Shown: positions 8,838 through 31,371 of the stretch, in pieces
How the letters are laid out: each line of letters begins with the position of its first letter
How positions within the stretch are numbered: the first letter of the stretch is position 1
Source: an uncultured bacterium
Lineage (GTDB): Bacteria; Patescibacteriota; Minisyncoccia; Phycocordibacterales; UBA9973
NCBI GenBank assembly: GCA_903894955.1
Contig: CAITSA010000009.1
Coordinates: forward strand, 1-32,992
Length of the DNA stretch: 32,992 nt
Direction: 5' to 3'
The notes under the pieces: generated by a model
The model's input: only the letters and a program-made list of their open reading frames with translations
The model's database searches: none
Told to the model about the DNA's origin: nothing
Position numbers and translations under genes: made by a program

Positions 8838-11800
8838 TTACTCCATCTTCTTTCTTGTTTGTGGTCCCACCACTCCATCAACCATTAACCCATGAGCCTT
8901 CTGCCATTTTTTAACGGCTTTAGCTGTCTTTAGACCGAAATTACCATCAATAGTTAAGTGGGGTTTTAAATGTTTGTTGAGAAATTTTTGTAAGGCTTTG
9001 ACATCGTTTCCTACACTGCCTAGCTTTAGAACGGAAGAAGTGCCAGTAGTGGTAGTAGATACTTCAGGGTTAGTAGTTGGAGGAGTTTGAGGAGAAGGAG
9101 GTAAGGTTGAATTTGACGCTGGAGATGAAGTAACGACAGTAGGAGCGGTGATTGTTGGAGCAGGAGTGGTAATTGTTTTAGTAATGACTGGAAGATTGGT
9201 AAAGACTGAAGCACTGGTAACTGTTTGACAGGTAACATCGAGGTTTAGGGGGGCAGAATCTGTATAGTTGTTAACATTATCTAGGGCTCGAAGACTCCAG
9301 GTGTGATAGCCACAGGTTGGATTAGAGAGAGTATAGGGAGAAGTAATGGAAGAGGCTAAAAGAGAACTATCCCAATAGAAGTTGTAGGAAGCTGGTCCCG
9401 AGAGAGCGTCGGTGGCTGACCAAGTGAAGACAGGAGGAGGATTTCTAGTGCGAGCACTATTGTTGAGGGGTAGAAGGTTGGAGAGAAGTGGGCCGGTGGC
9501 ATCAATCCCACTGATGGCATTTGATAATGCGTAAAAATTAACATTTCCGGTATAATCCTGCGCTCTATAGCAAACCGTTTTGCCTACATCTGCTTCCGTA
9601 TGAAAATTTAATGAAGCGTAGCTTGTAAAAGTTAGACTGGCGTCGCAGGTGTTAACTCCTGTGTTATTTATGGCATAAGATAGAGTTGTTCCTGCTGTAG
9701 TTGAGGCGATAACGTTTTTACTTTGCGCCCAAGTTGCATTTGGATTATTAACAGTTATCGGATTGTAGGCAGAGGCTAAATCTGTTGAGTTAAGGTCTTG
9801 TCCAGTAGATTGTTGCCAATCTGCCAACGTGTTGTAAACATTCACGTTACCAATTACTGTACTAGAATTAGGGTGATAGTAGGTGTTGTTATTAAATGTA
9901 CCAAAGAGAGGGGGGGTATCCGGCCCTAGATTGGTTCCAGTAGATTGTCCAGTATAATACCTTGCGACAGCGTCTGTCCCAAGCGTTTCAAAAATATTGT
10001 TCGTAGCAATATTATTACGAACAAGACCAGGCGCCGCTGTAGAAGAATTTCTATTTATAGCATAGGCGTATTTTCTAGAACTATAAACATTATTGCCTGT
10101 AACTGTGGTGTCATGAGAGGAATGAAGAAAAATACCTACATCCGTGTTGGAAACAATGTTATTGAGAATACTTATGCCATAAGAAAGATCATCTAGGTAA
10201 ATCCCAAGAGACATTGTTGTCGTGTGATTGGTTCCACTGGCATTACCAATCGAATTGGTAACTGTGTTGCCGCTAATTGTTCCAAACATAGGATTACCGC
10301 TAGGCTCGGTATAAATTCCGCCACAATCATCAAGCACTAGGCATGACCTGTCTATAATGTTATTTTCAACTAAAGTCTGACTACCATTAATCTGACCACC
10401 ACGAAAATCTATACCAATATATCCGCTATTGGTAACAGTATTGTTGTTGGCCGTCATCGCGGCGCCTGTTATATAAATTGCACCATCTGACACTTTTGGC
10501 ATCCCTACATTCCCCGCATTGTTAATAGTATTATTTGAGACAACCTCGTTGCTTGTATTTGTGGTGGCCTGTATTCCATCTGACAAGGTATTCTGTATGG
10601 AATTATTGGTTATTGAAGAATTTGTATTAGTAGTTAATAATATTCCATTCTGTCCTCCGGATGCAGTAATACCGTTTATGGTTATATTACTAGCGTTAGA
10701 GATATAAACATCCTGTTGATTTGCGTTATCAATTTCTAAATTCTGAATTGTGATGTAATTTTTTCCAGTATCATTGATGCCATACGAACGATTTGAGATT
10801 TCTACAGAATGACTGCTTGGATTATCGCCATTGGGAGCCCAAAGATAAATCTGGTGCGCGGTTGAATCGTAGTACCATTCGCCAGGAGAATCAAGCATCC
10901 AGAGCATATTCTGAAGATAAAAACCATAACCAGCTATCATGCTTGATTGCGTGCCAGGATATATGCTGTCATGCAAAGTTATGGTATAAGTTGCCGGATT
11001 GTAGTCTGTCGCCACTGTCGTGCCTATATACCAATCGTTTGCTCTAACCATAACCGTCGCTCCAATAATTTGATCTGACGTTAACGTAAGATTGGAATCA
11101 ATTATAGTGTTGTAACTGGTATAATAAGAATTCGCAGTCGCTGTCAGCCAGCCGCTGTTTGGATAATGGGCAATATCATAAAAAGTTCCATCAACATAAA
11201 GCTGGTTCGGCACGTTCGCTGGGCTAGTACTGGCAACATAAATATTACCACTGTAGTTAGTCCATCCGCTTACTGTATCTGCTCCGGAAATAATTGGCTT
11301 GTTCCCTGTTCCATATGCGCCAAAAGTGATGGGGGCATTTGCTAATCCTGACGACAGTACCGTTAACTGTTCCCGCCAGGTGCAACCTCTATGGAAAAGA
11401 ATTGAATCTGCGGGATTGAAAGCAGATGAATTTACTTTAGCAACTGTAAGCCATGGAGTTGAGGGATCTGTGCCATTATTAGAATCGCTGCCTGTTACTA
11501 CGCAATTATCAACATAGTAAACGGCACCGGTAAGTGTAATGGTTATTGTTTGTGATGCGCTTGGCGAAATATTACCTTCATAATCCCTGACCCAAGCGTA
11601 GGCATTTACTACGCCCGCTTCTCCAAAAGTAAAGGTGGCCGGCGCTGTATCGGACCAATTGGGATTACCAAGCGATGGTATTGAGGATGACTCGGTGATT
11701 AGATAACCAGTAGCACCAACATCATCAGTCGCAGTAAGCGTTGCCGGTACCGTAATCGCATTTGTATTAGCAGGCATAGAAAAGGTGGTAACAGACGGGG

Positions 11801-13157
11801 CGACAAAATCAGTCCGTGTGTGAGTAGACTCGTCCGCGCCTATGTCCCAACCACTTCCAAATGGTCTAGCATCTGCATCAATGTCAGTGTTAAAGGCGAG
11901 GTTACTATCTCCGGACAAATTTGCGCCCGCGTTAATGGCGACTGCGCCTGGGGCTAAATGAAAATCTTCATTCGTGGCATCAATAAATTGAATCTTGGTT
12001 GAGTTGAGTGAATTGGAACCAGGAGCGTCATTAAAGTCAGAAATATTATTAGAAGATGAGTCTGCATAATTGCGAACAAATCCACTGGAAACGTCATCTT
12101 GAGAAATATTGTTTATGGCTGTAACTGTGCTTGGTGCCCACGTAGCGCCTATCCCTTGATAATTATTGTAGAGCGTATTGTTGTAGACATAGGCGATATC
12201 TCCGGTAACCTGCATGGCCGCGCCGCTAGCACAGTTGAAACCATAAATAATATTATTCCAAATTCTATAGACATTCGCGCTGGCTGTTGCCCTATAATTT
12301 TCAATTCCCATTTGCCCAGTACCACCACCATTACCGCTTTTAATAATATTGTTGGAAATTTGGATGTCTGTTGTATCACCAATTAACTTACCAGACACAT
12401 TTATACCCCAAGCATAGGTTGCGGTCGAGGTAATTTTGATTTGTAAGCCATCAAAACGAATGTAGTTCGTGGTACCGGAAAAGCCATTTGCGTTTGTTAA
12501 CTCAATTCTGTACGCATTGGTAGTCCATTTTCCAGTATGACGCTGTGAGGCATTTGCTTCAGTGGAAGTGCTAACCGGGGTATATATTCTTATGTAATTT
12601 AATGAACCAGTAGTATAGCTACTGACAGCTAAACCAGAGGTAGTGTCCGCACCAGTATCGTAATAACAAGGGATATTTAAAATCACATTGGCGGTCACGA
12701 GATTAGCAGTAGTGATGTGACTAGAATCTTTTGCTCCTGTTAAAGCCGCCGACATTGATGCATAGGCATGAGTAATAGATGTTACTGCTGTTGAAGCCAA
12801 ATCAACTGGAATTGCTCCAAGTTTAGTTACAACATTCCAATGCTTTGTATCTATTTTTGAAGCTAAATAATATATGTTTCCACCTGCATTCAATCGATCA
12901 CCCACGCCTAAATTATTTGCGATCTGAGCCACAGTGAAAGTGGCCACGCCAGAAGTTATGCTGATATTGCCACCACTAGAATGATCAGTGGTATTTTGGC
13001 CTACGGAGTAATAAACATTGACTGCCACAGCACTGGCATGACTGGCTATACTAAAAAACAAACCAACACACAACAGAAGTAGAACGGTTTTTGCCCTTCT
13101 TTTTTTTTCGGATTGTGTATGTTTAAATTTTAACATATTAACACTTAATGACATCAA
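8838..13157 (-). CDS. Secreted right-handed beta-helix (pectate-lyase-like) protein with C-terminal PG_binding_1-type domain
   Basis: N-terminal signal/TM (TVLLLLCVGLFFSIASHASA); repeated N/T/I-rich solenoid (NNSIQNTLSDGIQATTNTSNEVVSNNTINNAG…); Thr/Pro/Ser linker; LKLGSVGNDVKALQKFLNKHL…VDGVVGPQTRKKME. Confidence 0.88.
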   Translation of the reverse strand: MMSLSVNMLKFKHTQSEKKRRAKTVLLLLCVGLFFSIASHASAVAVNVYYSVGQNTTDHSSGGNISITSGVATFTVAQIANNLGVGDRLNAGGNIYYLASKIDTKHWNVVTKLGAIPVDLASTAVTSITHAYASMSAALTGAKDSSHITTANLVTANVILNIPCYYDTGADTTSGLAVSSYTTGSLNYIRIYTPVSTSTEANASQRHTGKWTTNAYRIELTNANGFSGTTNYIRFDGLQIKITSTATYAWGINVSGKLIGDTTDIQISNNIIKSGNGGGTGQMGIENYRATASANVYRIWNNIIYGFNCASGAAMQVTGDIAYVYNNTLYNNYQGIGATWAPSTVTAINNISQDDVSSGFVRNYADSSSNNISDFNDAPGSNSLNSTKIQFIDATNEDFHLAPGAVAINAGANLSGDSNLAFNTDIDADARPFGSGWDIGADESTHTRTDFVAPSVTTFSMPANTNAITVPATLTATDDVGATGYLITESSSIPSLGNPNWSDTAPATFTFGEAGVVNAYAWVRDYEGNISPSASQTITITLTGAVYYVDNCVVTGSDSNNGTDPSTPWLTVAKVNSSAFNPADSILFHRGCTWREQLTVLSSGLANAPITFGAYGTGNKPIISGADTVSGWTNYSGNIYVASTSPANVPNQLYVDGTFYDIAHYPNSGWLTATANSYYTSYNTIIDSNLTLTSDQIIGATVMVRANDWYIGTTVATDYNPATYTITLHDSIYPGTQSSMIAGYGFYLQNMLWMLDSPGEWYYDSTAHQIYLWAPNGDNPSSHSVEISNRSYGINDTGKNYITIQNLEIDNANQQDVYISNASNITINGITASGGQNGILLTTNTNSSITNNSIQNTLSDGIQATTNTSNEVVSNNTINNAGNVGMPKVSDGAIYITGAAMTANNNTVTNSGYIGIDFRGGQINGSQTLVENNIIDRSCLVLDDCGGIYTEPSGNPMFGTISGNTVTNSIGNASGTNHTTTMSLGIYLDDLSYGISILNNIVSNTDVGIFLHSSHDTTVTGNNVYSSRKYAYAINRNSSTAAPGLVRNNIATNNIFETLGTDAVARYYTGQSTGTNLGPDTPPLFGTFNNNTYYHPNSSTVIGNVNVYNTLADWQQSTGQDLNSTDLASAYNPITVNNPNATWAQSKNVIASTTAGTTLSYAINNTGVNTCDASLTFTSYASLNFHTEADVGKTVCYRAQDYTGNVNFYALSNAISGIDATGPLLSNLLPLNNSARTRNPPPVFTWSATDALSGPASYNFYWDSSLLASSITSPYTLSNPTCGYHTWSLRALDNVNNYTDSAPLNLDVTCQTVTSASVFTNLPVITKTITTPAPTITAPTVVTSSPASNSTLPPSPQTPPTTNPEVSTTTTGTSSVLKLGSVGNDVKALQKFLNKHLKPHLTIDGNFGLKTAKAVKKWQKAHGLMVDGVVGPQTRKKME

Positions 13158-18656: not shown

Positions 18657-19148
18657 TCAATTTATTTCCAGAAACTTTTTTTCTATATCTTTATAATGAT
18701 GAAGTAAAAAATGACAATTATGACACAGCCAAGATAAATTTGAGATAGAACTATTTTTTTTATTATGATCCATATGATGAACAGCTAAAACTCTTGCATC
18801 TTTAGTTTTACATAATCTGCAAATTTTTGGAACTTTGCATCTAAACATTATACTTCTGTATGAATGCTTGCCATCTTTCCAGTTAGCATGTAGTGGTCCA
18901 ACAAAGACAGAATTTCTCCATTTTGTTTGGCAAGATTTTGTACAAAAATATGTTTTACTCTTAGAGACACGTAATGCTTTTTTTGTTTTATAAACTTCTT
19001 TACCGCAAGAGTGACATTTCACAAATTTGCCTGTTCTACTACCAATACGCATACATTTTTTTGAACAATATTTTGCGTACCCAATTTTTATATGATAGGG
19101 TTTTCCATAAAATTCTTTTGAACAAATTTTACATTCAATAATAGGCAT
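18657..19148 (-). CDS. Free-standing HNH endonuclease with zinc-finger-like N-terminus
   Basis: CKICSKEFYGKPYHIKIGYAKYCSKKC, CHSCGKEVYKTKKALRVSKSKTYFCTKSCQTKWR, VLAVHHMDHNKKNSSISNLSWLCHNCHFLLHH. Confidence 0.88.
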   Translation of the reverse strand: MPIIECKICSKEFYGKPYHIKIGYAKYCSKKCMRIGSRTGKFVKCHSCGKEVYKTKKALRVSKSKTYFCTKSCQTKWRNSVFVGPLHANWKDGKHSYRSIMFRCKVPKICRLCKTKDARVLAVHHMDHNKKNSSISNLSWLCHNCHFLLHHYKDIEKKFLEIN

Positions 19149-19591: not shown

Positions 19592-19675
19592 TGCGCAGGA
19601 GAGGATTCGCACCTCCACGCCCTTAACGGGCACCAACACCTCAAGCTGGCGAGTCTACTGTTTCTCCACCTGCGC
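19592..19675 (-). tRNA. tRNA-Leu (GAG)
   Basis: GCGCAGG…CCTGCGC acceptor, anticodon arm CCAGC-TTGAGGT-GTTGG, long variable arm, T-arm GGAGG-TGCGAAT-CCTCT; no encoded CCA. Confidence 0.9.
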
Positions 19676-20344
19676 ATATAATTTTTGCTGTTTCCCCTCT
19701 ATAACTAAAGCTTTTTCTATTTTTAAACGTTTCCGGGATAAACAAACTACCTCAGGATTGTAATACATTTTTTTAATAACTTCTAGTGCTTCTCGTTTAG
19801 CAAACTTAAGTTGAAAAAAGGAATTATTAGTAGACATTGTAATATGACCAGCAATATTTGCTCTAAGTTGAATAACTTTTCTTAGCCAAAGAATATGTTT
19901 TTTACTTGCAGAAGCAAATACAACATAAAACATATGACTTGAACGCCATCTTGGGTCCCAATAGGAATAGAAACAACCATCTCCGTCAAAACAGCCCCGT
20001 AAAAAATCAAAAAAATATTTATCTGGTATCACCAATTTACCCATAGTTAATGATTTTCTTGGAGTTAATCCAACAGACAAAAGAAAATCATAAAAAATTC
20101 TATTTTTAAATTGAATTCTCAAATGTTTATCTCCATTACTGTTCCATTTATTACTTATCTTAAAATCGACTCCAAGGCATTTAGAAAAATTTAATAATTG
20201 CTCTCTATCTTTAGAAGTCAAATCAATCAATAAGCCATCACTAGACAAACATCCGTCTGTAGTAATTAAGCCAATTGCATAAGCTAAATTTGCATTCCAT
20301 TTTTCATTTATGATTCTTTTCGGTTTTGGTCCCCTCTTTCTCAT
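19655..20344 (-). CDS. LAGLIDADG-family homing endonuclease, free-standing
   Basis: LAYAIGLITTDGCL and FFDFLRGCFDGDGCF motifs; stop codon lies inside tRNA-Leu. Confidence 0.88.
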   Translation of the reverse strand: MRKRGPKPKRIINEKWNANLAYAIGLITTDGCLSSDGLLIDLTSKDREQLLNFSKCLGVDFKISNKWNSNGDKHLRIQFKNRIFYDFLLSVGLTPRKSLTMGKLVIPDKYFFDFLRGCFDGDGCFYSYWDPRWRSSHMFYVVFASASKKHILWLRKVIQLRANIAGHITMSTNNSFFQLKFAKREALEVIKKMYYNPEVVCLSRKRLKIEKALVIEGKQQKLYAQVEKQ

Positions 20345-20902: not shown

Positions 20903-22606
20903 TTACAAAAATTCATCTTGATAACATTTTACACAATAAACTATTCTAGGGTCTTCCGGTGCATAAGGCGTATAAATGTCGATACCACATTTCATGCAAA
21001 TTCTATTATATAGTTTAGGTTTAGTCATTCTCTCAAACCTTTTATTTTCTCGACATTTTGGACATTTTCGAGGAAGAGGTAGATTCATCTTTTTCAAAAG
21101 ATCAAATTCCAATCTCACAATTTTATATTTTCTTTTGCAAGAAATGCATGAAATTATTTCTTTTAAGATTGAATCATCTACCTCCTTGATGGTTTCTGGT
21201 AAATCTTCTCCAGCCATAGTTGCTTCATTCTGTTGTTCCACTTCTTCGTTCCAAGCATAGCCAAAAGCTAGTGCTTCTTCTTTGGTCTTTGGAAAAAATT
21301 TATAAGCGGTCGAATTATTATAAGCAAATTTACTAAAACCAGACTGAAAGAATTCCCCGTATTTCCATATTCTTCCTCTTTCATCTATATATGGATTATC
21401 TTTCATGTCAACAATAATTTTTTCTTTCAAAACTTTGTATTCTTCTTTAGAATATTCTTTATTTAAGATACAATAATTTTTACGTTTTAAACTGACACAA
21501 CCAAAATTATTTTTTACTGCTATACACCAAAAAGAATATTCTGTATTTATAACATCGTTAAAACAATACATTGAAAATTTCACATTATTTACATTAACCC
21601 CAACATTTGCTGATTCATAAATAAGTTCCGCATTATTGCCCCAACCGGAATAATCCATACAATCTTTTGCGGGTGCAACCGTTATAAATTGGCACCATTT
21701 ACAGTTTTCTGCACCATTTGCAATATACATTTCTTTCGAATTTTTTGACGTATACACATGTTCACCCGTCACATTTAAATTTAAAGAATGCCCGTTATAT
21801 TCTCTATACGGTTTAGTCATCCAAAATTCACGAGTCTTTTTTCCAAATTCATGTAATTTTGTCCAGAAATCTAACCCAAGTTCTTTCAATTTTTTCTCAT
21901 ATTCCTCCTTCCCATATTTAATGTTAAAAATATAGTTTGAAGCTCCACGAAGGTTCACGCACCCAATACAATTAGTACAACCGTAACAATTTCGAGAAAA
22001 CCATACGTCTACACAAGTATCACATTCATCTGAAAAAAAAGTCTTGTAATTTTTAGTAAAACCGATAGATTCATAGCATAGTTCAGAATTAAATCCTCGT
22101 ATGCAATCTGCACTATATTTTAAACCATTTAAAAAAGAAGAAAGATATACACTTTCACAATAATCTGCCCAAGTCGCGAGAACACAATTTTTAGAAAAAC
22201 CAATGGAATTACTATATTCACAATTTTTATTGTTTAAATAACCTGTTTCTAGGGCTGGATATGGAGTCTTTGCGGATAATTCTTTTACTTGAGCTAGAAA
22301 TGGTTGCTTTGGATTATAATCCAAAGCATGCTCTGTTCCATCCCAATCATCTGCCCACCAACACGGCTGACAATAAACGATAATTTTCTGCGAAGGTGGA
22401 TACATAGAAAGTGTACGCTTACCACATTTATCGCAATTACGATAAAAGAGATACCAACTATTTTGACATGCTATACGACGAATCATCCGACACTCCGGGC
22501 ACCATGTTGGTGGAGGCACCTTTATTTTTTCATAAAAATTAAAGTCCTCCGACTCGACAGTGAAGTCTTTTTGGCAATTTTTACAATTCTTGATTTCAGC
22601 TTCCAT
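20903..22606 (-). CDS. Cys-rich protein with duplicated zinc-ribbon pairs at both termini, unknown function
   Basis: N-term CKNC…CPEC + CDKC…CQPC; C-term CISC…CPKC + CMKC…CVKC; Cys/aromatic-rich centre. Confidence 0.85.
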   Translation of the reverse strand: MEAEIKNCKNCQKDFTVESEDFNFYEKIKVPPPTWCPECRMIRRIACQNSWYLFYRNCDKCGKRTLSMYPPSQKIIVYCQPCWWADDWDGTEHALDYNPKQPFLAQVKELSAKTPYPALETGYLNNKNCEYSNSIGFSKNCVLATWADYCESVYLSSFLNGLKYSADCIRGFNSELCYESIGFTKNYKTFFSDECDTCVDVWFSRNCYGCTNCIGCVNLRGASNYIFNIKYGKEEYEKKLKELGLDFWTKLHEFGKKTREFWMTKPYREYNGHSLNLNVTGEHVYTSKNSKEMYIANGAENCKWCQFITVAPAKDCMDYSGWGNNAELIYESANVGVNVNNVKFSMYCFNDVINTEYSFWCIAVKNNFGCVSLKRKNYCILNKEYSKEEYKVLKEKIIVDMKDNPYIDERGRIWKYGEFFQSGFSKFAYNNSTAYKFFPKTKEEALAFGYAWNEEVEQQNEATMAGEDLPETIKEVDDSILKEIISCISCKRKYKIVRLEFDLLKKMNLPLPRKCPKCRENKRFERMTKPKLYNRICMKCGIDIYTPYAPEDPRIVYCVKCYQDEFL

Positions 22607-23637: not shown

Positions 23638-23946
23638 TTACAGCGAAGGGTCAACGACAGGTGAAATAGAATTTAATATTTGCTGTGAATTATTTTCTCT
23701 TTCAGAAAAAATATTTAATACTTTTTCAATACGATTTTGGTTAACTAAAGGAAGTTGCCCATTGTCATTGGTGGATGACAAAACAGGTTCTTCGTTCATT
23801 TGGATAAAAAGACGATAGTTGAAAATAAAAGAGAAGAGAATGATGACTATGGCAATAGTAAAAACAATTATCCAACAAAGATTCGAGTGAAAAATAAAAT
23901 CTTTTTTCTTAAAACTATTTTCTTTTTTAAAAAAATCTATTTTCAT
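23638..23946 (-). CDS. Small single-TM protein at the end of a pilMNO-like locus
   Basis: Overlaps the PilO-like CDS by 4 nt; one TM segment. Confidence 0.55.
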   Translation of the reverse strand: MKIDFFKKENSFKKKDFIFHSNLCWIIVFTIAIVIILFSFIFNYRLFIQMNEEPVLSSTNDNGQLPLVNQNRIEKVLNIFSERENNSQQILNSISPVVDPSL

Positions 23947-24482
23947 GAAATAAAACTTAAAAGTTGTATTTTAAAAACTGCTTCCCAGCTTGCATTTTTA
24001 ACATTTTTATCTGATGTAACTGGCGATGAAAGTCTGTGTATATCCATCGAAGCAAAATCAAGCACATATGGAGAATTTTCTAATAGGGTTAAAAATTTAT
24101 AAATTGCTTCAAATCTACCAGATGCTTTTAAGTTAACTATTAATCCTGAGTTGTCTACCTTGGTATCCACTGAATCAATTTGAGAAGAAACGCCAGCTTC
24201 CTTTGCCAATTTTTCAATCATATTTAAAAATGGAACAACGTCAGAACTCTTAATAAAATGACTCTCGAGTAAAGTCCTGTCTGGAACAATTTTTTGAAGG
24301 ACTCGATCTAGAGAAGCAATATCGTCACGTCGACGCGCCTCCGTTTGCAAGCTTATAGTACTTTGTTGTGTTTTTTGATTATTGTCATTTATTTTTTGAT
24401 ATAAAAATATAAAAGCAAAGGAACCCAATAACAAAACTGCTACAGAAATAAAAAGTAAGGTTTTTTGAAAGTTGTTTTTCAT
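23943..24482 (-). CDS. PilO-like type IV pilus assembly protein
   Basis: N-terminal TM, coiled coil, VVPFLNMIEKLAKEAGVSSQIDSVDTKVD…LKASGRFEAIYKFLTLLENSPYVLDF. Confidence 0.75.
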   Translation of the reverse strand: MKNNFQKTLLFISVAVLLLGSFAFIFLYQKINDNNQKTQQSTISLQTEARRRDDIASLDRVLQKIVPDRTLLESHFIKSSDVVPFLNMIEKLAKEAGVSSQIDSVDTKVDNSGLIVNLKASGRFEAIYKFLTLLENSPYVLDFASMDIHRLSSPVTSDKNVKNASWEAVFKIQLLSFIS

Positions 24483-24499
24483 AATTTTATTCTATCATC

Positions 24500-25042
24500 T
24501 TACGAAGGATTTAAACTTAAATAAAAATCGATGTTGGATCCTTTCACAAAATTTGAAATTGGCAAAACAACATTTTTAAAATTCGGGCTATCCTCTAGCG
24601 CCTGACGAAATAAAAGCAAAACCTCACGAGAAGGAGCTATCCCAGTAAGGTTAATGGTTCTACCTTTTGTCCCATTATTTTCATATAAAATTTGAGTGAT
24701 TTTAATATCAGACATTTTGTTAAGAAGAATAGCGTTAATTACCTTCGTAGAAAGGAGAAATTTATTTACTTCAAACTTTTCAACTAAAGTAAGTTTGGTA
24801 TCCATATCTTTAATCGAAGCTAGTGACTCTTGTCCTAAAATAGGTAATGGTTCTAACTTTTGGTTTTCTAATTTGGTGCTAATTAAAGAATATTTCATGG
24901 AAGTAATAAAATACGATGGCAAAATAGAAATAAAAGCGACTATGATACAAAAATCAAACATCACTATAAAAAAAATAGTAAGTCTAAGGTAAAAATCTAT
25001 AACCATCTTCTTCTTTTCTTCTTTTGGAATTAGATTAATCAT
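24500..25042 (-). CDS. PilN-like type IV pilus assembly protein
   Basis: MINLIPKEEKKKM start followed by TM; INLTGIAPSREVLLLFRQALEDSPNFKNVVLP. Confidence 0.8.
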   Translation of the reverse strand: MINLIPKEEKKKMVIDFYLRLTIFFIVMFDFCIIVAFISILPSYFITSMKYSLISTKLENQKLEPLPILGQESLASIKDMDTKLTLVEKFEVNKFLLSTKVINAILLNKMSDIKITQILYENNGTKGRTINLTGIAPSREVLLLFRQALEDSPNFKNVVLPISNFVKGSNIDFYLSLNPS

Positions 25043-25047
25043 ACAAT

Positions 25048-26145
25048 TTAATTATCTTCATTAAAATCTCCCAAGGCTAATCCTAGAGCCGTAGTAAAAG
25101 AAAGTGACTGCCCAAGGCTCATTTCTGGAATATAATTTTCCGTATTGAGTATATTAGTCCAAACATTTGCCACCTCCACAGGACTTTTCATACTGATAGA
25201 AATGTATTCCGTGAGCCCTATTAGATTAGAATCACCACCACAAAAAATTATCTTTTTAATAGGTGGATTATTTCTACCCTCTTCATCTTTGTGCGTATGC
25301 CAATATAAAAAATGTTTAACTATTTCATCACGTAAAATAGAAACACTATTTAAAAGCACTGCAAATATTTCTTTGTTGTCAGTATTACGCTCTAACCCAT
25401 ATTCTTCTTTCATTTTTTCCGCTTCGTCAAAGCTTATGTTGAAATTTTTTTGAATCATATTAGTCAACGTCACTCCTCCCAGATCAAGAGTAAAGGTAAA
25501 TACCACGATACCTCTCGAAATAATAAAAATGCCAGTTCTTTTTTTCCCAAAATCTATAATCATATAAGTATCCATATCAGTTTTTTTAATAACAGCCCTA
25601 GAAGCTGCTTGGGCTTCAAGTTCAAAAGATTTAACGGATAGCTGAGAACGTTTAAAAATTAATAAATAATTTTCAATTATATTTTTTAATATAGCCGTAA
25701 CTTGAACTTCTAGATATTGAGCATTTTCACCAATCACTTCATAATCAAAAATTGCATCTTGGGCCGAGATTGGTATATGGTCTTCGATCGCAAGCTCAAT
25801 TCCTTCTCGAACTTCTTTTAAACCTGATTTTTCTAACTTCATAGTAAAAAGGTATACTTGTTCTTCAGGTAAAGAAACTCGCACAGACTTTATCCCTTCT
25901 TCCTTTTTAAGCGTTGAGAGAATTTCCTCTATTTTTTTTGAGTCTTTAATTTTTCCAGATTCAATAACTCCAAGTGGAATGTCCCGCTCTCCATAGCGTC
26001 CAACCCTAATACCATTTTTAGTAGCAATGAGCTGTACAAATTTTAATGATTCATCTGAAATATCTAAACCAAAAGATGGCTCTGAGAGAATTTTAGGCAA
26101 AGGAAAAAATCTTAGAAAAATTCTAGTGAATGAATTACTAAACAT
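25048..26145 (-). CDS. pilM: PilM-like type IV pilus assembly ATPase
   Basis: FGLDISDESLKFVQL, YMIIDFGKKRTGIFII, FCGGDSNLIGLTEYI (actin-fold). Confidence 0.88.
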   Translation of the reverse strand: MFSNSFTRIFLRFFPLPKILSEPSFGLDISDESLKFVQLIATKNGIRVGRYGERDIPLGVIESGKIKDSKKIEEILSTLKKEEGIKSVRVSLPEEQVYLFTMKLEKSGLKEVREGIELAIEDHIPISAQDAIFDYEVIGENAQYLEVQVTAILKNIIENYLLIFKRSQLSVKSFELEAQAASRAVIKKTDMDTYMIIDFGKKRTGIFIISRGIVVFTFTLDLGGVTLTNMIQKNFNISFDEAEKMKEEYGLERNTDNKEIFAVLLNSVSILRDEIVKHFLYWHTHKDEEGRNNPPIKKIIFCGGDSNLIGLTEYISISMKSPVEVANVWTNILNTENYIPEMSLGQSLSFTTALGLALGDFNEDN

Positions 26146-29219: not shown

Positions 29220-29828
29220 ATGGAAGAAATAATTTCGCAAGAAGAAATAAGTCGATTGATGAATAAGAAGGGTGAGGTAAGAGGCATAGCTCTTATAAAC
29301 GAGAATGATTTTATCATTAAAGAAAAAGGTAAAGAGGGGTTGAAAAAGTTCGAAGAAGCAGTAGCCCGTCTTGGTATTAAAAAAGAAGAGAAAGAATTAA
29401 ATAAGTGGGAATTTTATCCGATAGGGCAAGAGATAATAGAATTACTTGTTATAAAGAAAATTTTTAATTTTAGTGATGACAAAATGAAAGAAATTGGTAT
29501 TTTAGGCTCTAAGCTTTCTTATATTGTTAAATTATTTTTTCAATATTATATGGGCTCTATGAATTTTTTGGCCCAAAAGGCGCCTGAACTATGGAGGAAG
29601 TATTATACGGTTGGTGATTTAGTTGTTGAAGAAATAAATGAGGAGAAAAAATATATAATTATAGACATTAAAAATTTTAATTTTCATCCAATACATTGTT
29701 TACATCTTAGTGGTTATTTTTCAAATATGGTAAAGATGACTGCTGGCACTAAGACAACTGTAGATTGTCAGGAAATAAAATGCGTTCACCGGGGAGATGA
29801 GTATCATCAGTTTTTGATTAAATGGTAA
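29220..29828 (+). CDS. V4R-like putative sensory protein, paralog A
   Basis: HPIHCLHLSGYFSNMVK…CQEIKCVHRGDEYHQFLI resembles V4R C-terminus; paralogous to 30760..31371. Confidence 0.65.
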   Translation: MEEIISQEEISRLMNKKGEVRGIALINENDFIIKEKGKEGLKKFEEAVARLGIKKEEKELNKWEFYPIGQEIIELLVIKKIFNFSDDKMKEIGILGSKLSYIVKLFFQYYMGSMNFLAQKAPELWRKYYTVGDLVVEEINEEKKYIIIDIKNFNFHPIHCLHLSGYFSNMVKMTAGTKTTVDCQEIKCVHRGDEYHQFLIKW

Positions 29829-30759: not shown

Positions 30760-31371
30760 ATGGATCAGGAATTAAATAAAGAATTAGTTGATAAATTAAT
30801 GGCTTTGCCCGGAGAAGCCAGAGGAGTAGTTTTCATCACAGACTACAATTATGTTTTAAAAGAAATGGGTGAAGACGGATTAAAGAAATTGGAAGAAGAG
30901 ATGACTGCTCTTGGTTGTCCAATTGATTATAAAAAAATTGATACGCTGTCTTTCCATCCTATAGGTTTACGCGTTATTTCTCTGCTAGCTATAAAGAAAG
31001 TTTTCTCTTTTAATGATGAAAAAATAAAAGAAATGGGAATGTTTGCCAGCAAAACATCCCTGATGCTCAAATTGTTTATTAATTATTTTCTTTCTAGACA
31101 AAAGGTATTTTTTGAAGAAGCACCCAAAATTTGGCATAAGCATTATTCTTCAGGAGAACTTATTCCTTTAGAGCTTGATGAAGAAAAAAAATACTCAATT
31201 ATCCAAATAAAAAATAATTACAAATTACACCCTGTTTTCTGTATGTATCTGGGAAGTTACTTTTGCGGATTCTTTCATATGTTATTCAAGAGCGACGAAA
31301 TAAATTTTCAAGAAACAAAATGTCTTTTCCGAGGAGATGAATATCATGAATATAAAATAACATGGAAATAA
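30760..31371 (+). CDS. V4R-like putative sensory protein, paralog B
   Basis: GEARGVVFITDYNYVLKEMGEDGLKKLEEE…LHPVFCMYLGSYFCGFFHML…ETKCLFRGDEYHEYKI. Confidence 0.65.
   Translation: MDQELNKELVDKLMALPGEARGVVFITDYNYVLKEMGEDGLKKLEEEMTALGCPIDYKKIDTLSFHPIGLRVISLLAIKKVFSFNDEKIKEMGMFASKTSLMLKLFINYFLSRQKVFFEEAPKIWHKHYSSGELIPLELDEEKKYSIIQIKNNYKLHPVFCMYLGSYFCGFFHMLFKSDEINFQETKCLFRGDEYHEYKITWK

Follow-up and report, generated by a model that had tools for sequence, protein, structure and literature searches.

Antifreeze-like solenoids capped by zinc modules: a multicopy protein family of Patescibacteria associated with an anchor-less coupling-protein-like ATPase

Coupling proteins of the VirD4/TrwB family, which select the substrates of type IV secretion systems (T4SS), mostly carry an N-terminal membrane anchor. 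In Patescibacteria, the T4SS is thought to serve epibiotic life (PMC12102498, PMC12857230), and a 2025 survey counted 5,713 VirD4-like coupling proteins, mostly encoded far from virB4 (Quinonero-Coronel et al. 2025, PMC12102498). This survey leaves open the exaptation of these proteins, and the part of it considered here names no solenoid or zinc-finger partner of them (PMC12102498). The present analysis deals with a previously undescribed protein family, antifreeze-like solenoids capped by zinc modules, whose genes are associated with the gene of an ATPase that belongs to this same family of coupling proteins but to a clade devoid of the anchor. Naming a candidate partner and a candidate regulator for one clade of coupling proteins makes the question of exaptation open to test.

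Other described proteins resemble parts of this family. The small zinc proteins with zf_Tbcl and zf_Tbcl_2 fingers (PF13451, PF23477; TIGR04272) display the module pair found at both ends of the protein described here, but the latter has one copy of this pair on either side of two long solenoids; ORFs of about 100 aa carrying a zf_Tbcl-type finger are common in the phylum. The antifreeze protein of the beetle Tenebrio molitor (PDB 1ezg), whose Cys ladder is disulphide-bonded, is a beta-helix of 12 residues per coil like the centre of the protein, from which it differs by its sequence (14% identity) and by lacking the double solenoid with caps and zinc ends. T4SS effectors, like this family, comprise many proteins with common terminal domains for each coupling-protein-like ATPase; unlike them, the family has no variable toxic domain, evolves slowly and goes with an ATPase devoid of transmembrane (TM) anchor.

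The window, i.e. the whole stretch of 32,992 nucleotides analysed (contig CAITSA010000009.1, from an uncultured member of Patescibacteria), carries a gene of this family at 20903..22606 on the (-) strand. Its reading frame is intact (ATG at 22606, stop at 20903-20905) and encodes 567 aa. The rluA gene ends 4 nt before it and rplS lies downstream, all on one strand; an earlier sequence-only reading had named both neighbours. In about 18 congeneric genomes, an ortholog of the window gene (71-51% identity) adjoins rluA, rplS or both. However, this context is conserved for this orthologous group only, the other copies sitting elsewhere, and the RNA- or ribosome-related role formerly suggested from these neighbours is not supported: what recurs phylum-wide is instead an association with TrmB-type regulators and with an ATPase that resembles type IV coupling proteins. 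Mean identity is 64.1% for the orthologs of the window gene, 64.5% for rluA and 76.7% for rplS; the window gene thus evolves at an rluA-like pace.

Each end of the protein has two zinc modules of treble-clef/zinc-ribbon type. The N-terminal zinc module pair (residues 1-95; 22322..22606, (-) strand; AlphaFold2 pLDDT 85-91) comprises a zf_Tbcl-like site with ligands C8/C11/C36/C39 (CKNC...CPEC) and a zf_Tbcl_2-like site with ligands C58/C61/C79/C82 (CDKC...CQPC). The C-terminal pair (residues 479-567; 20906..21172, (-) strand) has ligands C487/C490/C515/C518 (CISC...CPKC) and C537/C540/C558/C561 (CMKC...CVKC). In Pfam, zf_Tbcl_2 (PF23477) is matched at two stretches (28.8 bits for a gathering cut-off of 27), the one at residues 532-564 being above the cut-off, and zf_Tbcl weakly; the TIGR04272 CxxC-x17-CxxC domain reaches 26.7 bits, below the NCBIfam cut-off of 36. 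Profiles and conservation were established on 277 non-redundant full-length relatives, among which the last four ligands (C537/C540/C558/C561) are kept in 98-100% of the members, and the second N-terminal site is degenerate in part of the family (C61/C79/C82 kept in 44%). The terminal blocks align with each other at 99.4% probability (hhalign on family profiles, E 7.8e-22, 32% identity) and are, as judged from these profiles, true duplicates. The repetition noticed by the sequence-only reading is therefore real, with a spacer of x24 between the Cys pairs rather than the x26 that it gave, and zinc pairs are present at both ends of the protein.

The centre begins with a first predicted beta-solenoid of 12 residues per coil (residues 119-232; 21911..22252), to which the AlphaFold2 model, the match to 1ezg and the periodicity of Cys all point. 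A helical linker that varies among paralogs follows (residues 233-285; 21752..21910; modelled helices at 233-243 and 248-262), then a second beta-solenoid, predicted from the comparison of the two halves and modelled with lower confidence (residues 286-391; 21434..21751), and a modelled helix-rich linker that is conserved among paralogs (residues 392-478; 21173..21433), all on the (-) strand. A conserved cap with the pattern FGC..L..K.YCILNKQYSKEEY closes both halves. Cap motif 1 (residues 213-236, CIGCVNLRGASNYIFNIKYGKEEY; 21899..21970, (-) strand) is conserved across the family; the equivalent motif closing the second solenoid, cap motif 2 (residues 368-390, FGCVSLKRKNYCILNKEYSKEEY; 21437..21505, (-) strand), is the best-conserved stretch after the zinc ligands and is 0.64-0.76 identical even among paralogs. 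The comparison of the first half with the second (hhalign, 277 relatives, E 1.4e-33) indicates that they are duplicates, and the central Cys are spaced at multiples of 3 and 12 residues (z 69-85 for the autocorrelation at lags 3, 9 and 12). AlphaFold2 gives a pLDDT of 81.8 and a pTM of 0.83 for the whole protein, and a pLDDT of 82.3 for residues 97-412 modelled with 85 aligned sequences, most of the first solenoid being at 85-94 and showing 4-residue strands, one every 6 residues. Globally, the centre is predicted to be a beta-solenoid of 12 residues per coil, confidently so in its first half. Cys periodicity, duplicate halves and model agree with the sequence-only reading, which had seen a likely solenoid in some 400 aa with regularly spaced Cys and had proposed AlphaFold as a check.

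The closest structural match of the centre is 1ezg (Z 8.0, rmsd 2.5 A over 81 residues), a Z of 8 being at the upper edge of the values obtained from unrelated models. As this value is borderline and Foldseek gave nothing confident, the match reflects coil geometry rather than kinship, and the likeness is probably convergent; the 12-residue listing of the window protein displays none of the TxT rows of an ice-binding face. Foldseek searches gave a best E of 4.7 for the whole model against the PDB and of 0.003, at a probability of 0.2, for the centre alone, and the structure matches in BFVD are chiefly zinc-finger proteins. Searches of Pfam, NCBIfam, PHROGs (best E 0.0055), PADLOC and PDB sequences returned no convincing match for the centre, in keeping with the initial impression that no characterised homolog could be recognised. 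The epoxyqueuosine reductase found by phmmer among PDB sequences (E 0.19) is a chance match only. Proteins of this type are presumably often annotated as 'CaiB/BaiF family', an identity that was rejected, since the CoA-transferase domain is unmatched in Pfam and NCBIfam at E 10. PADLOC relates the family protein to no known anti-phage defence protein, the phage and plasmid records contain no family match, and no literature was found on the family, its annotation or a solenoid partner. A 68-aa family-like fragment (L146:4920-5123, (+) strand) occupies one end of a viral contig, on which phage structural-like proteins are encoded as well.

The genome to which the window belongs (627 kb, 77% complete) carries 12 full-length copies and 3 pieces cut by contig ends. 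These copies occupy about 23 kb, so that about 4% of the genome is devoted to one undescribed family, in bacteria that have shed most biosynthesis. Congeners have 1-26 family matches each, and the share is nearer 5-6% in the 26-copy congener. Arrays are strictly head-to-tail, 134 adjacent pairs being on the same strand and none on opposite strands. Among the 286 Patescibacteria genomes sampled, 21 have full-length members, in a patchy distribution over 10 family-level groups. All the named relatives belong to Patescibacteria (Nomura-, Staskawicz-, Jorgensen-, Lipton-, Sung-, Uhr-, Magasanik-, Peregrinibacteria and others), except one record labelled Burkholderiales, which is probably misbinned.

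In the genus of the window's genome, paralogs group with their counterparts in other genomes and not with copies of their own genome, which indicates that they are old and have been differentially lost. This pairing, together with the absence of TM-like segments from 275 of the 277 members, rules out a fast-turnover surface family involved in antigenic variation. Between 15 orthologs of the window gene, the identity of the solenoids is 0.60-0.67, and ends and solenoids alike are conserved; between the paralogs of one genome, that of the solenoids is 0.26-0.30. The first N-terminal zinc module, the helix 96-118, the second cap, the linker 392-478 and the last zinc module are 0.41-0.76 identical among paralogs. 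Shared ends and diverged solenoids are the pattern expected of proteins whose ends bind the same partner while each solenoid has a ligand of its own; the same pattern could fit cargo proteins with shared export signals. In G234, a divergent 301-aa member with two solenoid halves (L195:6044-6946, (-) strand) is encoded close to a type-C coupling protein with a membrane anchor; this member is a possible evolutionary intermediate.

The most frequent neighbour of the family genes encodes a VirD4/TrwB-like ATPase. This protein matches PF02534 (T4SS-DNA_transf, 1.4e-9) and PF10412 (TrwB_AAD_bind, 7.9e-6), both above cut-off, as well as HerA DUF87, and its Walker A is invariant. Its type-B forms, of about 490 and 745 aa, group as a single clade (SH-aLRT 99) within longer coupling proteins. 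Most of the latter are anchored in the membrane by their N-terminus, but type B has no such anchor: maximum N-terminal hydropathy is at most about 1.2 in type B, one row at 1.9 being due to an over-extended start, versus 2-3.2 in many type C. In the own genus, a type-A VirD4-like ATPase (L048:2354-4495, (+) strand) has, C-terminal to its ATPase core, the zf_Tbcl_2 finger (E 7e-12) that is also found at the ends of the family proteins; ORFs of 500-700 aa with this finger recur across the phylum.

The type-B ATPase is found in all 21 family-positive genomes and in only one of the 265 others, G172 (table 21/0/1/264; Fisher p 6e-31, kinship being ignored). With a type-B profile, 19 genomes, which are the family-positive ones outside the own family-level group, score 984-1320 bits and the next one 835; within the own group, the short ATPase form is present in G000, G203 and the family-less G172. 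This profile was built from family-positive genomes and is biased accordingly, but its separation is unlikely to be an artefact, because an earlier single-sequence search ranked the same genomes first and the score gap is wide. Furthermore, three family-level groups (f93, f82 and f61) each contain genomes with both partners and genomes with neither. At 18 of 19 family-positive loci, the ATPase gene is at most 1.2 kb away from a family gene, the two being usually on the same strand and less than 450 bp apart. A type-D ATPase of about 920 aa was taken as a control: a hand count of coordinates places its gene close to family genes in about 1 of the 15 genomes of the own genus, and those of types A and B in about 12 of them. 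Within this genus, the ATPase gene belongs to a conserved dnaK/dnaJ/rsmE neighbourhood and adjacency is therefore partly shared synteny. A genome usually has a single type-B ATPase but mostly 4-26 family members, and most copies sit far from the ATPase gene. G172 and G009 keep the ATPase and have no full-length family member, which speaks against adaptors as a strict requirement and suggests that the ATPase may have another job. Globally, the partnership of family and ATPase is well supported by genomics, and it provides a first testable idea of the function of the family.

The partnership also occurs in other forms. In G107 and G230, a gene for a soluble ATPase (713 or 747 aa) is directly followed by that of a 230-237 aa solenoid protein devoid of zinc modules. 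The solenoid of this protein, a version confined to these two of the 286 genomes, shows homology to the centre of the family (hhalign E 5.9e-10). G230 also has a TrmB-like gene ahead of the ATPase gene. In G161, the ATPase gene, a solenoid-only gene and a zinc-pair-only gene are consecutive. As the same parts are arranged differently in these three genomes, the link between ATPase and solenoid does not depend on a single gene arrangement. TrmB genes (PF01978) are also associated with the family: of the 50 present in ten genomes rich in family members, 18 have a family gene no more than 1.5 kb away, for an expectation of 0.64 (Poisson p 2.5e-20). In 15 of these 18 cases, the two genes are head-to-head, with the TrmB gene at the 5' side of the family gene. 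This association was not seen in the own genus, one locus excepted.

The reading that we favour, at a probability of about 0.4, is that the family consists of multi-copy cytosolic adaptors serving one dedicated anchor-less VirD4/TrwB/HerA-like ATPase, itself derived from T4SS coupling proteins, in Patescibacteria. From what precedes we infer that the shared ends of the proteins would dock on the hexameric ATPase and that each solenoid would bind its own cargo, protein or nucleoprotein. The solenoid would present this cargo to the motor, which may thread it, remodel it or hand it over to an export machine, and TrmB regulators may select which adaptor is made. A more ambitious version, in which a secretion coupling protein became a soluble general-purpose motor with up to 26 interchangeable solenoid adaptors, many of them picked by ligand-responsive TrmB proteins, is more doubtful. 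If true, it would be a modular cargo-handling system, of which no description was found in the literature, in some of the smallest known genomes.

The same data can be read in other ways. The family proteins might themselves be cargo destined for a host or partner cell, with the ATPase as receptor and the zinc ends as export signal. Substrate selection by coupling proteins, the many paralogs per ATPase and the presumed link of the T4SS with epibiotic life in Patescibacteria (PMC12102498, PMC12857230) all suit this explanation. So does the resemblance of the solenoid to the disulphide-bonded ladder of the Tenebrio protein: the Cys ladder could hint at an oxidising destination, against a cytosolic adaptor. 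Nevertheless, export of the family is rather unlikely, since the ATPase clade has no N-terminal anchor, Pfam and NCBIfam reveal no toxin or enzyme domain, and the paralogs are ancient and evolve at an rluA-like pace (64.1% versus 64.5%), unlike typical arms-race effectors. Physical linkage alone could also yield the co-inheritance of family and ATPase, as a genomic module without common mechanism; the proximity of the genes and the patchy distribution over 10 family-level groups would fit, but most copies are far from the ATPase gene, gene order varies and the solenoid-ATPase pair takes another form in two distant lineages; mere linkage is improbable.

Treble-clef modules often bind nucleic acids, and the family could act with the ATPase as a DNA translocase in uptake, transfer or repair. 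The ATPase matches to TrwB_AAD_bind and HerA DUF87 and the finger of the type-A ATPase go in this direction, whereas the mean net charge of about -4.5, with acidic solenoids and only mildly basic zinc modules, goes against this reading, which is a still weaker contender. A ribosome or RNA role, which the proximity of rluA and rplS in many congeners would favour, is highly improbable given that the remaining copies have different surroundings and that two congeners estimated to be 99-100% complete, G009 and G172, have no full-length copy. Least probable of all is an anti-phage defence cluster associating a HerA-like ATPase with partner proteins: the copies are island-like and variable in number and the ATPase is weakly similar to mad8 and HerA models, but the family protein has no PADLOC match, no nuclease or other effector domain was found and evolution is rluA-like in its slowness. 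The adaptor reading remains the preferred one.

The window carries other genes of possible interest. Directly upstream of rluA and on the same strand, pilM/pilN/pilO-like type IV pilus genes, named from their sequence, occupy 23638-26145 (-), and pilM-like genes recur close to orthologs of the window gene at related loci. Next to rplS, a Cys-rich HNH-like ORF (18657-19148, (-) strand) has weak TRASH/HNH_3 matches, and a LAGLIDADG homing-endonuclease-like ORF (19655-20344, (-) strand) has relatives in the same neighbourhood at about 5 related loci. A 1439-aa protein (8838-13157, (-) strand) is a candidate surface protein: its N-terminus is signal-like, its repeats recall a parallel beta-helix and its C-terminus resembles peptidoglycan-binding domains. 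Finally, the genes of two similar proteins of about 200 aa, possibly V4R-like (29220-29828 and 30760-31371, (+) strand), lie on either side of a membrane-protein gene, and a PAS-histidine kinase gene comes after them.
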